The notes beneath the pieces were generated by a model. The model made no database searches. It was not told where the DNA came from and saw nothing but the letters and a program-made list of their open reading frames with translations. 35,137 bases of DNA, from positions 1-35,137 of the forward strand of contig JAVUPY010000063.1 of NCBI GenBank assembly GCA_032252755.1, given 5' to 3'. Source of the stretch: Terriglobia bacterium. Its GTDB lineage: Bacteria; Acidobacteriota; Terriglobia; Terriglobales; Acidobacteriaceae. Shown one piece after another: positions 15,108 to 20,134 of this stretch. The translations under genes were made by a program, and so were the position numbers. Numbering within the stretch: position 1 is the stretch's first letter; the number at the start of each line of letters is the position of its first letter.

Positions 15108-16838
15108 TCAGGGCTCAAGACCCATTTTTCGTAGCAGGATTGCGAAACGGGGATCGCTGCGAATTGGATCGAGAAAACCATAGCTTTTGATGGGCATGAT
15201 GAGTTGGTCACACTCGTCGACGGCGCGGTCGAGCCACTGGAAGGCAGTATTGATTTGTCTGAGGCCTAAGTGGATCCACGCGAAGCAGGTTGGTGGGACA
15301 TATCCCGTCGTTGCTTTCTCGTGAAGACGGCGGAGCACCTCACGAGCTTCATTGGAATGGCCACAGCTCGTAAAGGTCAGCCCAAGCCATCCCAGCATCA
15401 TCGGGGCGTCGCAGGTCAGGTCGGCCGCTCTCCGCAGACTGGAAATGGCCTCATCACACCGATTGAGATAGCGCGCGGCAACTCCCACGACGAAGTTCCC
15501 CTGCCCGGAGGAGGGATCGATCTCGAGCAAGATGCGGCCCTGTTCTACTGCGCGCTCAAACTCTCGATTGAGGGTGAGCGTGATTCCGAGCCAGAGCCTC
15601 GCCCAGACTGACAAGGGATCAAACTCGAGAGCTCGCCTGAGCGTCTCGATGGCCTCTTTCAGACGACCATCAGGCATGAGTTCGCTGACCGCATATCTCG
15701 TAAGAACGACCGGCGAATTCGGGTCGAGGCGCAGAGCCAGCGCCATCTCGCGGTGGACTTCGGGCCAGTTGTAATCGATAGCCTTATGGAATTGGCCGAC
15801 GAGGGCATGTATCTCGGCGCGGGTATTGTCAATCTCCAAGGCTCGCATGGCATGCGCAAGTCCGATCGAGAAGGCCTTTCGGGGCGGCATGAAACCGAGA
15901 TACCCCTGGTACCAGTAGAGTTCGGCAATCGCGTCGAGGACGGGGGTGAAGTCGGGATCGCGAGCAATGGAGTTCTCAAAATGCCGCAGGGCAGCGGCAG
16001 TCCTCTCCGGGGTTCCCATCGCGATCGATCGGCCCTGGATGTATTCGCGATAGGCAATCAGATCGCGAGTTGGCATGTGGGAAGCGTTCAAGGTCAGCGC
16101 ACGCATTCCCATTCCGAGTTGAGCCGCGATGTCCGTGGCGGCCCTCAGCTGCAGCGCCAGAAGATCATTCCAGAGCGCTTCATACTTGCGCGCGAAAACG
16201 TGGGTTTCGTCTCGCGCGCGTACGACCTGGATGTTGAGTTCACCATTGTGACTGGAGCGGCGGATGGCGCCCTCAACGGCATAGTCGACGGCCAGTTCGC
16301 GTCCGATGCGGGCAACCTCCTTGCGAGTGGTCTTGTAGTGCATCGCTGTCGTACGGGCGATGACGGCGAGGCGCTCCGGGGCGAGGGATGCTAGCGCGGT
16401 AATGACCTCGTCGGTCATTGCATCGCACAGGTACTCCTGCGCCGGATCTCCGGTCATATTCACAAACGGCAGAACGACCAGGCGCAGCGGTTTTCCCGAC
16501 TGCGTTGTTGGTTCGGGAAACTCCTGCACATCGGCGATGAAGCGGTAACCGCGCTTGGGGAGAGTTTCGATAAAGGAAGGATGTTCCGCGGAGTCGCCGA
16601 GGGTTTCGCGCAGTTGCGCAATGGCGGTATTCAAGTTGTTTTCGAAATCGACGGACACCTCGTCGCTCCAGATGTGGCGCTGAAGGTCGTCGCGAGAGAT
16701 TACTTGACCGGGGTGTTCGAGGAGAAGATCGAGGATTTGGAAAAGTTGATATCGGAGCCTGATCTTCGCTCCGCATTTGCGGAGCTGACCGGAGTCCAGG
16801 TCGGCTTCATAGGAACCGAAGCGAACGACGTGGGGCAT
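15108..16838 (-). CDS. Winged-helix DNA-binding / TolB-like / TPR transcriptional regulator
   Basis: The start at 16838 has AGGAG 8 bases upstream; the frame is open to 16865 but the added 9 residues are unrelated. The 576-residue product begins with an OmpR/PhoB-type winged helix (about residues 1-95: RFGSYEADLDSGQLRKCG, then LLLEHPGQVISRDDL, NTAIAQLRETLGD and PKRGYRFIA). Residues about 115-235 resemble the TolB N-terminal-like region of adenylate-cyclase/CadC-like regulators (LVVLPFVNMTGDPAQEY). The rest is tetratricopeptide helices (REYIQGRSIAMGTPERTAA, EIHALVGQFHKAI, RRALEFDPLSVWARLWLG). No receiver domain and no clear membrane segment are seen, so the input is unclear. It is divergent from the 5'-nucleotidase gene and has a direct-repeat operator candidate between. 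Confidence 0.88.
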   Translation of the reverse strand: MPHVVRFGSYEADLDSGQLRKCGAKIRLRYQLFQILDLLLEHPGQVISRDDLQRHIWSDEVSVDFENNLNTAIAQLRETLGDSAEHPSFIETLPKRGYRFIADVQEFPEPTTQSGKPLRLVVLPFVNMTGDPAQEYLCDAMTDEVITALASLAPERLAVIARTTAMHYKTTRKEVARIGRELAVDYAVEGAIRRSSHNGELNIQVVRARDETHVFARKYEALWNDLLALQLRAATDIAAQLGMGMRALTLNASHMPTRDLIAYREYIQGRSIAMGTPERTAAALRHFENSIARDPDFTPVLDAIAELYWYQGYLGFMPPRKAFSIGLAHAMRALEIDNTRAEIHALVGQFHKAIDYNWPEVHREMALALRLDPNSPVVLTRYAVSELMPDGRLKEAIETLRRALEFDPLSVWARLWLGITLTLNREFERAVEQGRILLEIDPSSGQGNFVVGVAARYLNRCDEAISSLRRAADLTCDAPMMLGWLGLTFTSCGHSNEAREVLRRLHEKATTGYVPPTCFAWIHLGLRQINTAFQWLDRAVDECDQLIMPIKSYGFLDPIRSDPRFAILLRKMGLEP

Positions 16839-16937
16839 GATGGCGCTCCTGCCCTGATGCGGCAAAGCCTACGCCCAATCTAATCCGGGGTCAATGATTA
16901 AGCCCTGCGCTATCAACCGCCTGCGCTTTAAGGAAAA

Positions 16938-16958
16938 TTCAAGACGCTTTCAAGACGC
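16938..16958. promoter_or_regulatory. Tandem 11-bp-period direct repeat, candidate operator
   Basis: TTCAAGACGC occurs at 16938-16947 and again at 16949-16958, a period of 11 bases, which is the arrangement bound by tandem OmpR/PhoB-type winged helices. It sits about 100 bases upstream of the winged-helix regulator (minus) and about 112 bases upstream of the 5'-nucleotidase gene (+). Control of one or both genes by the regulator is an inference. Confidence 0.55.
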
Positions 16959-17070
16959 CCTCCATTCATTAACTCCACCGATCGCCGCAGAATGGCCCTC
17001 GATCCGGCTCCCAATGAGTTTCCTTCCCCCACAAGCCTGCCCCGTGAGCTAGCAGGCCAAGGAGCATGTA

Positions 17071-18696
17071 ATGAGAAATCACCAGAGACGATTCATCGCC
17101 CAACTTATTACGGCAGCGCTCGTGGCATTGGCACTATGCCTGACCGTCGTTCCGCCTGTCGCAGCCCAGTCTGCTCAAATAACGTTACTTCATATCAACG
17201 ATACTCACTCTCACCTCGACGCATGGGGACCAAAGGATGCAAACCTCGACGGAACGTTGGGTGGGCTGCCGAAGGCGGCAGCAATCATCAACGCGGAGAA
17301 GACCGCGGATCTTCAAGCGCTTTTTGTTTATGGCGGCGATTTCATGGAAGGCGATCTGTTCTTCCGCGACTACCTGGGCGTGCCGGAGCTGAGCTTGCTT
17401 AGATCGCTTGGCCTGGACGTGATGGTGCTCGGGAATCACGACTTCGTCGCTGGGCCGGATTTCCCGGCGAGTGTGTTTCAATCGGCCTGGCCGACCGGCG
17501 GCGTGCCGGTCGTGGGAACAAACCTCGTCGTTCCCACGAACTCTCCACTCTATCCGTGGGTCACGCCGTGGGTGATGAAAGAGGTGAACGGAGTGAAGGT
17601 CGGGATCATCGGTATCACGGTTCGAAACGCTCCGCGAGAGAACAATGCACCGCTAGGTCATCCCGCACCGGTGACCGTTCTGAAATATACGGTGGATCCG
17701 GTTCCGGGAACGGTAGCTGCGCTGCGCTCGGCAGGCGCACAAGTGATCATCTGCATCGCGCACATCGGGATGGTCTCGGCCCGCGACCTCGCAACGAAGG
17801 TTCCCGACATCGATGTCATCGTGAATGGGCATGATCATGCGGTATTGGAGCAACCGGAGAAGGTGGGCAAGACGCTCATTATTTCCGCTGGCGACCACTA
17901 CCGGTACGTCGGACGGTTGCGCCTGGCGGTGGCCGGTTCCCAAGTGAGCCTGGTTGACTACGCTCTCCTCAGCGTGGATGAGACCGTGACACCATTGGCA
18001 TCGGTGCAAGCGGAGATCGACAATTTGAAGGCGGGCATTGTTGCGCGCTACGGCGACGTGTATCACCAGAGGCTTGCGGTCGCGGACCCGGACCTCACCG
18101 CGCAGTTCAATCCGAATAAGGCAAAGCGCGATACCGCGCTGGGGAATCTGTATACAGACGCGTATCGAGGGTGGACGGGAACGGACGTTGCGATTGAGGC
18201 AACGGGCTGGCTGGGAGACGATTTTCCTGCTGGTCCGATTGTCGGCGCCGATGTTTTCCGCGGGATGAGCTACGCGGAACCTGCGCTTGGCAAGTCTACC
18301 GCGACGCCGTGGCGGCTCGTCACCTTCCGCACCAGCGGCGCCACATTACTGGCGGTTCTTGAAGCCACGATAGCGCTGGGAGGCGATTACTTCCCGCAGG
18401 TTTCAGGCATGCGGCTGGATTACGATTCCTCGGCTTCAGCCGGTAGCAAGATTCTGGCTGACACTGTGCACCTGGGCGGGAAGATCCTGGCTCCCGATCA
18501 GTTTTACAGCGTGACGGTTACCGAAGGCACCTATGGCGCGCTACTTTCCCTCAAGGTGCCGATGCAGGACGTACAGTTGGTACCGGTCTCCGCGTTCGAC
18601 GCCACGCGTCTGCTGGTTGCTTCGCGAGGCACGCTTGGATTGGCTACGTCGAACCGGATAAGGGATGTTGCGGGGAAGTTCAAGAATGACGAATGA
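17071..18696 (+). CDS. UshA-type periplasmic 5'-nucleotidase / metallophosphatase
   Basis: A 541-residue protein with a signal peptide (LITAALVALALCLTVVPPVAA) that cleaves near residue 33. The metallophosphoesterase domain has its metal ligands in place: LLHINDTHSH (D44, H46), YGGDF (D90), LGNHDF (N122, H123), CIAHIG and VNGHDHA. The second half (about residues 330-541) is the 5'-nucleotidase C-terminal substrate-binding domain, with NLYTDAYR, GATLLAVLEATI and SGMRLDYDSSA. Relatives free nucleosides and phosphate from extracellular nucleotides. The divergent neighbour is a winged-helix regulator that may control it. AAGGAG lies 7 bases before the start (GGCCAAGGAGCATGTAATG), so the ATG used is well supported. 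Confidence 0.93.
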   Translation: MRNHQRRFIAQLITAALVALALCLTVVPPVAAQSAQITLLHINDTHSHLDAWGPKDANLDGTLGGLPKAAAIINAEKTADLQALFVYGGDFMEGDLFFRDYLGVPELSLLRSLGLDVMVLGNHDFVAGPDFPASVFQSAWPTGGVPVVGTNLVVPTNSPLYPWVTPWVMKEVNGVKVGIIGITVRNAPRENNAPLGHPAPVTVLKYTVDPVPGTVAALRSAGAQVIICIAHIGMVSARDLATKVPDIDVIVNGHDHAVLEQPEKVGKTLIISAGDHYRYVGRLRLAVAGSQVSLVDYALLSVDETVTPLASVQAEIDNLKAGIVARYGDVYHQRLAVADPDLTAQFNPNKAKRDTALGNLYTDAYRGWTGTDVAIEATGWLGDDFPAGPIVGADVFRGMSYAEPALGKSTATPWRLVTFRTSGATLLAVLEATIALGGDYFPQVSGMRLDYDSSASAGSKILADTVHLGGKILAPDQFYSVTVTEGTYGALLSLKVPMQDVQLVPVSAFDATRLLVASRGTLGLATSNRIRDVAGKFKNDE

Positions 18697-18928: not shown

Positions 18929-20134
18929 GTGAGCGGGTGTCTACGTCGAACTCTGGCTGTCGTCTTAACTGTATTTTTGAGTGCTCTGCTTCTGGGGCTT
19001 GCAGCTTGCGGAAACAAGACCAGTTCTTCGTCCGGAAATAATAGTGGAACGAACGGGACTGACAATGGAAGCGGCACAAACGGCGGAAGTAGTAGCGGAT
19101 CGGGCAATGGTGGGGGCACAAGCGGCGGAGGAAGCGGGAGCGGCCAGGCGGCCGCAACTTACCTCTATGTTGCGAATGCGGGTCCGGACAACAACTACTT
19201 TACCGAGAGCAGCACGCCGGAGACGATCAGTATCCTCAAAGTCGATCCGAATACCAGCCAGATGACCCTGGTGGGCGGGTACGGCGACGAATCGAAGTGG
19301 ATCGCGAACCAGATCCTGGTAGCGGGCCAGTGGGTACTCGCGTCGCGCGGCACGGGCGCGGCTTTCTCCGAGATGAAGATCGATTCGTCGACCGGCGAAC
19401 TCAGCGATCAGAAGGATCTCACAACAGGCCAGCTATTCACAGTCAGTCCGGACGGAAAGTTCGTGGTACTGCTTGAAAATGGGAACTTCACTTCCTACTC
19501 GATTGACCAGAGTTCTGGCGCGCTAACGAAAGTAAGTTCGACCGCGGAAACGTGCTCGGCGGTGCCGGTGGTCTCGCAATGGGACCCGACCGGGCAGTAC
19601 TTTGCTCCGCTGAATTGTGATGGGACCGTGGTGAAAGTGTCGTCGACGGGACAGATCTCGGCGAATGCAACCAACGCTGATCAACTGGATGCGAGCGCGC
19701 AGCCCGTTGGGTTCAACACCAGCGGTACGCATTTCGTCGCGGTGAAGAAAGTTGACCAGGGCGGACAGGTTCTGATCTATGACTTCGATCCGAATACCGG
19801 CTCGTTGACGTTCTCGGGAAATGGACCGAGCTTCGGCGACGGGACTAGCTACGCGATTGGTGGTGATTATCTTTACGTGCGTGGCGGAACAGGGACGATC
19901 TACAAGATGGGTGGTACTCCGTTTGGGGTCACGGATACGGGGCAAACGTTCAACGCGGTCAGCGGATGGAGTCAGCCGTTCATCGTGGACCTGCAGAGCA
20001 ACACGGCGTTCATCGTTCAGCCGCAGTCAAACCAAGTCAGTTCTCTGCGAGTGGGATCAGACGGCGGATTGAAACTGGTGGATAGCAAACCGACCGGGAC
20101 CGCACCCTGGGTGATGGCGGTGGCACATTTCTAG
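18929..20134 (+). CDS. Lactonase-like beta-propeller lipoprotein with Ser/Gly linker
   Basis: The start is GTG, with CAGGGGGT 8 bases upstream. The 401-residue product has a lipobox (LLLGLAAC, Cys at about residue 27), so it should be lipid-anchored after processing by signal peptidase II. Residues about 30-73 are a low-complexity linker of Ser, Gly, Asn and Thr. After that come seven-bladed-propeller-like repeats (YLYVANAG, SILKVDPNTSQMTLVGG, KIDSSTGELSD, SIDQSSGALTKV, DFDPNTGSLTFSG, SLRVGSDGGLKLVDS), as in the 6-phosphogluconolactonase (cycloisomerase-2) family. Many such proteins are scaffolds and not enzymes, so no reaction is claimed. It faces away from the nucleotidase and ends in front of a repeat pair. 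Confidence 0.82.
   Translation: MSGCLRRTLAVVLTVFLSALLLGLAACGNKTSSSSGNNSGTNGTDNGSGTNGGSSSGSGNGGGTSGGGSGSGQAAATYLYVANAGPDNNYFTESSTPETISILKVDPNTSQMTLVGGYGDESKWIANQILVAGQWVLASRGTGAAFSEMKIDSSTGELSDQKDLTTGQLFTVSPDGKFVVLLENGNFTSYSIDQSSGALTKVSSTAETCSAVPVVSQWDPTGQYFAPLNCDGTVVKVSSTGQISANATNADQLDASAQPVGFNTSGTHFVAVKKVDQGGQVLIYDFDPNTGSLTFSGNGPSFGDGTSYAIGGDYLYVRGGTGTIYKMGGTPFGVTDTGQTFNAVSGWSQPFIVDLQSNTAFIVQPQSNQVSSLRVGSDGGLKLVDSKPTGTAPWVMAVAHF

Follow-up and report, generated by a model that had tools for sequence, protein, structure and literature searches.

A putative three-unit operator with an 11-bp period between a winged-helix/TPR regulator gene and a divergent gene for an exported protein in a Terriglobia bacterium

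Results

The divergent gene pair and its regulator

The DNA analysed was a stretch of 35,137 nt from a Terriglobia bacterium (contig JAVUPY010000063.1), referred to below as the window. An intergenic region of 232 bp separates a divergent gene pair within it. The neighbours agree with the preliminary description of this DNA: a regulator of the OmpR/PhoB type with TPR repeats lies on one side (− strand) and a Metallophos and 5_nucleotid_C protein of the nucleotidase superfamily with a signal-like start on the other (+ strand). The features are listed below.

15108..16838, − strand: regulator gene, encoding an N-terminal winged helix (Trans_reg_C), a middle region with no Pfam name and TPR repeats; the listed ORF start is TTG 16865
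16846..16850, − strand: likely ribosome-binding site of the regulator gene, AGGAG (by eye)
16866..16871, − strand: putative −10 of the regulator gene, TAGGCT, 17 nt from the −35
16889..16894, − strand: putative −35 of the regulator gene, TTGACC, a recurring family pattern
16923..16966, − strand: match to the 45-column family profile on the regulator strand, 25.3 bits with the window in the training set
16927..16937, + strand: putative operator unit 1 (TTTAAGGAAAA), the one farthest from the nucleotidase gene; in the alignment it corresponds to unit three of the family element as read on the regulator strand
16938..16948, + strand: putative operator unit 2 (TTCAAGACGCT), whose hexamer 16938–16943 lies at the −35 position, 17 nt from 16961
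16949..16959, + strand: putative operator unit 3 (TTCAAGACGCC), promoter-proximal
16961..16966, + strand: putative −10 of the nucleotidase gene, TCCATT (family consensus TCTATT), placed by its alignment position; its match to TATAAT is weak
17059..17064, + strand: likely ribosome-binding site of the nucleotidase gene, AAGGAG (read from the sequence)
17071..18696, + strand: predicted exported 5′-nucleotidase-superfamily protein (Metallophos and 5_nucleotid_C domains, signal-like start)

Ten Pfam families were found in the regulator: Trans_reg_C at residues 33–109 (66.3 bits against a cut-off of 26.2), the rest all TPR models. Neither a receiver domain nor BTAD was among them, and the protein contained no transmembrane segment. 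The best NCBIfam match was HilA/EilA (NF009037), which ran from the winged helix into part of the repeat region and scored 99.7 bits, below the cut-off of 589; scores for the PhoB equivalog TIGR02154 (35.1 against 296.2 bits) and for CadC (52.1 against 400 bits) also fell below the cut-offs. The closest solved winged-helix chains were those of a ToxR-type activator and CadC. CadC and ToxR have a transmembrane segment, and in this the regulator is unlike them. The same genome held 34 Trans_reg_C matches, of which 25 were within open frames of more than 300 residues.

The listed start of the regulator, TTG at 16863–16865, directly abuts the putative −10 at 16866–16871. An ATG at 16838, preceded by AGGAG, appears to be the better start, and by eye several relatives begin at the place matching this ATG, with a similar leader.

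In the divergent protein, Metallophos (33.5 bits) and 5_nucleotid_C (68.6 bits) both scored above the Pfam cut-offs, and the motifs HINDTHSH, GNHD and NGHDH were recognised by eye in the alignment. These domains and motifs place the protein in the 5′-nucleotidase superfamily (UshA-like). Its scores against the NCBIfam equivalogs were below the respective cut-offs for SoxB (98.4 against 550 bits), NadN (73.4 against 436) and UshA (67.3 against 600).

The repeat and its chance level

The double repeat with a period of 11 bases that had been described earlier was present: TTCAAGACGC occurs twice on the + strand, at 16938–16947 and 16949–16958, with a start-to-start distance of 11. A third, weaker unit in the same 11-bp phase, TTTAAG at 16927–16932, was absent from the earlier description. 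Of 2000 shuffled versions of the 232-bp intergenic region, one contained a 10-mer repeated exactly at period 11. The whole window has one exact repeat of 10 nt or more at this period, and 7 of 200 dinucleotide shuffles of the window had one as well (mean 0.035). For all periods from 8 to 30, the window contained six exact repeats of at least 10 nt, compared with a shuffle mean of 1.04. Exact short repeats are therefore not rare in the window; the shuffle statistics of the TTCAAGACGC repeat alone are suggestive only, and the case for it rests on conservation.

Conservation of a three-unit element among homologs

Regulator homologs with E up to 1e-130 were collected from 398 genomes of the family together with the window's own genome. 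With three candidates scored per genome, this yielded at least 18 homologs beside the window's regulator, 44–58% identical to it, from 12 genomes including its own. L097 and L140, cut by the start of a contig, and L064, which lacked the N-terminus, were left out. The element was found upstream of the 18 closest homologs with upstream DNA, three of which are paralogs in the same genome. On the regulator strand, its consensus consists of AATAGAC followed by three CTT-headed units 11 bp apart, approximately CTTGAT, CTTAAA and CTTACC.

A Gibbs sampler (width 50, one site per sequence), given no information about repeats, returned one motif with a log-likelihood of 589.7 as the best of 12 starts, compared with 261.8–274.8 for 12 shuffled sets with four starts each; the sampler is forced to return a site per row, and common promoter ancestry also lifts the score. 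The AATAG block was exact in 13 of the 19 loci. CTT-N8-CTT, corresponding to a spacing of 11, was present in 13/19 loci and CTT pairs at a spacing of 22 in 10/19; the highest counts among 200 shuffles were 6 and 5, respectively. Pairs at a spacing of 18 were also raised (6/19 loci, a count reached in 3 of 200 shuffles). At L060 the first unit was not clean, and at L062 the element carried one extra base.

Seven homolog loci from other families of the phylum were used as a held-out test. Three of these (L136, L137 and L141) had the element. For L138, L139 and L142, where upstream DNA was present, the profile gave no match at that setting; L140 was without upstream DNA. With filters off, L138 produced a weak match (6.3 bits, E 0.0093 over 601 bases). 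The L142 protein resembles the query regulator from residue 126 on only. A lack of conservation in orthologous intergenic regions had been named earlier as what would refute the reading of the repeat; the repeat proved conserved in close homologs and also at some held-out loci. The element is thus an array conserved across genera and families, and a putative operator.

Specificity of the element

The 5.4-Mb genome was searched with a profile of 19 sites. Four matches had E below 1e-4, namely the window and the three paralogs, and the next match had E 0.5 (150 of 842 first-look candidates scored). All significant matches in this genome were thus located at paralogous regulator/exported-gene pairs. 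A profile constructed from the 15 sites of other genomes ranked the four sites of this genome 1, 2, 3 and 5, the window site being the one at rank 5, with 12.8 bits and E 0.7. This E value marks the window site as a divergent member.

TTCAAGA-N4-TTCAAGA occurred a single time in the genome, and TTCAAG-N5-TTCAAG with one mismatch matched 24 genome sites compared with 30 for the reversed control, indicating no enrichment. Profile matches beyond the four loci were at background (E 0.5 or worse, 150 of 842 candidates scored), and a genome-wide regulon of TTCAAG repeats was rejected.

The scan was extended to 25 genomes, 12 picked with a homolog and 13 without one at E 1e-60. At E up to 0.1, matches were obtained in 11 of the 12 homolog genomes and in 3 of the 13 others, these three being weak (E 0.003–0.047). 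The 22 matches comprised the 15 training sites, four new strong sites and the three weak ones. The new strong sites were a second site each in G048 (locus L057) and G298 (L120) and one each in G054 (L119) and G215 (L131); L131 was found through its site only and not by the homolog search. At L057, two copies of the element (1145–1189 and 1383–1424) lie 238 bp apart before one regulator/exported-gene pair, and the DNA after each copy appeared similar by eye.

Position of the element relative to the two genes

Three of the new strong sites were informative on which gene the element serves. The site in G215 lies between another regulator homolog and an exported cytochrome-c-like protein. The second site at L120 (1501–1543) precedes a second exported ORF, past the regulator and the first exported gene, with no regulator gene adjoining. 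The solo site at L119 (1501–1543) precedes an exported ORF without a Pfam family, and no homologous regulator was present in 3 kb.

The spacing from the element to AATAGAC was constant, and AATAGAC read on the opposite strand contains the −10-like TCTATT. The distance from the element to the aligned listed regulator start varied from 86 to 169 nt. On the strand of the exported gene, the middle unit occupies the place of a −35 with a 17-nt spacer (16938–16943 and 16961–16966 in the window), and a gap of 6 nt separates the proximal unit from the putative −10 of the nucleotidase gene. For the regulator, a separate promoter pattern, TTGAC-N17..19-TAnnnT, was seen at 12 of 23 loci, compared with no more than 2 in any of 500 mononucleotide shuffles, the pattern having been chosen post hoc. 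A strict sigma-70 scan of 16800–17120 reported no promoter. Taken together, the solo and second sites, the fixed spacing to the −10-like block and the separate pattern on the regulator side suggest that the element acts directly on the exported gene.

Exported partners and the nucleotidase

Using a simple hydrophobicity rule, a signal-like start was found in 22 of the 23 divergent genes, compared with 9 of 28 ORFs in the window. The divergent gene at L138 was signal-like by eye if begun at an inner ATG. Among the extra loci, L141 and L142 had a signal-like divergent ORF, and L139, where the element was absent, was without one. The 23 divergent genes fell into nine sequence groups: eight small exported proteins, five hydrolase-like proteins, three Ig-like lipoproteins, two nucleotidases and five singles, one of which is cytochrome-c-like. 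These names are loose, as the small proteins are without a Pfam family and the hydrolase and Ig matches were below curated cut-offs on truncated sequences.

The nucleotidase itself is rare: among 396 genomes of the family it was present in 2, and among 396 of the phylum in 10 (the window's own genome in both; 11 in total). The regulator was beside it in 2 of these 11 genomes, that of the window and G722 (L138/L144), a member of another family of the phylum whose nucleotidase is 57.6% identical to the window's; the pair therefore recurs once at phylum distance. In the other nine genomes the regulator was not within about 1.5 kb per side (more for G015). The element profile gave no matches on the 10 other nucleotidase loci, apart from the weak L138 match with filters off.

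In the window, a second exported lipoprotein-like gene with a match to beta-propeller lactonase lies 3′ of the nucleotidase gene on the same strand (18929–20134). It could share the control of the nucleotidase gene.

Covariation of the putative operator and the DNA-binding domain

Covariation was examined for 21 loci with a clean array. L060 (unit 1 not clean), L061 (DNA-binding domain partly out of frame) and L138, L139 and L142 (no profile site) were left out. After the distance between C-terminal parts had been removed, operator distance correlated with DNA-binding-domain distance with a partial r of 0.378 (0/5000 and 2/5000 permutations in two runs). The result was retained without the CTTTA group (3/5000) and without L131 (0/5000), and was weaker after close relatives had been thinned (93/5000). 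When operator distance was instead compared with C-terminal distance, after that of the DNA-binding domain had been removed, the correlation was weaker but still present (partial r 0.240; 29/5000).

All five loci whose recognition helix reads N[SG]LNI have T as the fourth base of both unit 1 and unit 2. None of the other 16 loci had T in both units, and L092 alone among them had T in unit 1. In a tree of the full-length regulators these five loci are split between two groups, and L062, which is of the other type, falls into one of the two as well. The residue that follows LN would match a position at which PhoB contacts bases. On the DNA, no more than about 0.5 kb separates the operator from the DNA-binding domain, so joint transfer or recombination offers an alternative cause of covariation that does not involve binding.

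Two other observations were made at these loci. At L061 the reading frame of the regulator is broken inside the DNA-binding domain (match from residue 42–43), by mutation or sequencing error. At L101 and L141, DNA-binding domain and operator are both of the L058 type (identity 0.78 and 0.80 for the domain, 0.89 for the operator); their C-terminal part is closest to that of L062 (0.70 and 0.75) and their cargo is of L062's kind (L101 by BLAST, L141 by eye), an apparent joint swap.

Discussion

Proposed operation of the element

The element is likely to be a private three-unit operator at which the neighbouring winged-helix/TPR regulator, a cytoplasmic protein, switches on the divergent exported gene. 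The regulator would bind the three units of 11-bp period head to tail, with one DNA-binding domain per unit and all on one face of the helix. With units at about −46, −35 and −24, the operator would cover the −35 and the spacer of the exported gene's promoter, and the bound regulator may stand in for the −35 and help RNA polymerase, as SARP/AfsR and PhoB do. From this overlap, activation is judged the most likely effect on the exported gene. The regulator would itself be made from the separate sigma-70-like promoter (TTGACC-17-TAGGCT) on the other side, and its TPR part may sense the signal. Conservation, spacing, placement relative to both putative promoters, confinement to regulator/exported-gene pairs in this genome and covariation with the DNA-binding domain come from the computed comparisons; binding, the two promoters and the direction of the effect are inferred from them. 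Against this reading, the window site is among the weaker members of the family and its −10, TCCATT, is poor.

Of what the preliminary description had suggested, a putative head-to-tail operator for the adjacent OmpR/PhoB-type protein is supported, and the proposed phosphate- or nucleotide-scavenging circuit is not. The finding that such a circuit can invoke is that a nucleotidase-superfamily protein is the partner both here and at L138/L144 of G722, where the two enzymes share the identity given above. At 21 of the 23 loci the partner is another protein, the regulator has no receiver domain, and in most genomes with the nucleotidase (9/11, within the flanks searched) the regulator is not near it. 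Since the partner in relatives is usually another protein, the element is probably not a phosphate switch, and the scavenging circuit is regarded as improbable.

The same operator and regulator could instead serve repression, in which the bound protein would hold the exported gene, and perhaps the regulator gene itself, silent until a signal releases it. The units do cover the putative promoter's −35 and spacer, a place from which a bound protein can obstruct polymerase, and the regulator's own promoter pattern looks constitutive. This arrangement appears unlikely, as the putative −35 and −10 hexamers are poor, which is expected of an activator-dependent promoter, and much the same placement activates in the SARP cases described in the cited passages (PMC10936776, PMC4393881). 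Very little probability is given to an operator that mainly autoregulates the regulator, with the nucleotidase as a bystander: the element does lie upstream of the regulator at the loci found by homology and the partner gene does vary, but the L119 solo site and the L120 second site precede exported ORFs where no regulator gene adjoins, and the element keeps a fixed spacing from the divergent gene's −10-like block (AATAG exact in 13/19) but a variable one (86–169 nt) from the aligned listed regulator start. A duplication by chance or slippage, to which the lack of genome-wide enrichment of TTCAAG repeats would be congenial, is contradicted by conservation across genera and families. A scan reported a terminator-like stem at 16961–16941 on the minus strand; with 3 G-C of 7 pairs, 0.4 such sites expected by chance and both genes pointing away, a terminator was ruled out. 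Chance, slippage or a terminator part can hardly be credited as the origin of the repeat.

Relation to known systems

The proposed activating operator resembles two described systems. In the cited passages on SARP promoters, repeats are 11 or 22 bp apart, the 5′ repeat lies over the −35 and the 3′ repeat is 8 bp from the −10; the afsS box has its centre at −29.5 and is paired with a suboptimal −10, and the SARP domain has been imaged in complex with RNA polymerase on the afsS promoter (PMC10936776, PMC4393881). As these sources describe the Streptomyces regulators AfsR and OtcR, the likeness lies in an OmpR-type DNA-binding domain without a receiver, in AfsR also with TPR, and in 11-bp direct repeats, one over the −35 and the last within the spacer, close to a −10 that is suboptimal (PMC10936776, PMC4393881); here both hexamers are putative. 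The window protein differs in being without BTAD, its element has three units rather than two, the putative −10 follows the last unit after 6 nt instead of 8, and its partner is an exported protein rather than an antibiotic cluster.

The Pho box is described as a pair of direct repeat units, each of 11 nt, that are occupied in tandem and head to tail (PMC4415409), and the same unit length and a putatively similar mode of binding are proposed here. Unlike PhoB, the regulator has no receiver and scores far below the PhoB equivalog cut-off, and the half-site is different and the partners have no phosphate theme. The window protein joins this type of DNA-binding domain to TPR repeats and lacks a receiver, a BTAD match and a membrane segment; its site would work like a SARP or PhoB site, while the protein, by the criteria applied here, belongs to neither family.

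Tentatively, and with more doubt than confidence, the loci may be viewed as a cassette family of three exchangeable parts: an operator with its matching DNA-binding domain, a TPR sensor and an exported cargo. Each regulator would have a private promoter serving one exported protein, and operator and domain would move jointly from cassette to cassette.

Period 11 at other large winged-helix genes

The search for 11-bp arrays was widened to other large winged-helix genes. Upstream of 17 such genes in the same genome, period 11 had the best mean three-unit score (11.47; next period 10.82), and the same held upstream of 21 distant homologs (11.48; next 10.38). Scores of at least 13 were reached at period 11 in 4/17 and 5/21 cases, and at any other period in at most 1/17 and 3/21. 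These rows are partly dependent, since L077 and L081 share one array and L022 and L029 the same stretch, and TPR repeats were tested in the window protein only. As period 11 came top in both sets, the same rule may hold for further large winged-helix regulators that use different half-sites.

In the open-licence literature, no paper was found that names binding sites of large winged-helix/TPR regulators in Acidobacteria. If the proposed rule is true, the binding site of a whole regulator class could be read from the sequence beside each gene, and the targets so named would be exported proteins, mostly of unknown role. The loci would also supply natural regulator/operator pairs with covarying recognition helices, on which the evolution of winged-helix specificity could be tested.

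Individual arrays at period 11 included CTGAAG/CTGGAG/CTGAAG (L077 and L081), TTCAGA/TCCTGA/TTCTGA (L018) and CCTGAC/CCTGAC/GCTGAT (L027). Across L018, L027, L077, L081 and L082, the DNA upstream of large winged-helix genes displayed other 11-bp triple arrays, with units of the CTGA- or CTGTAG-type.
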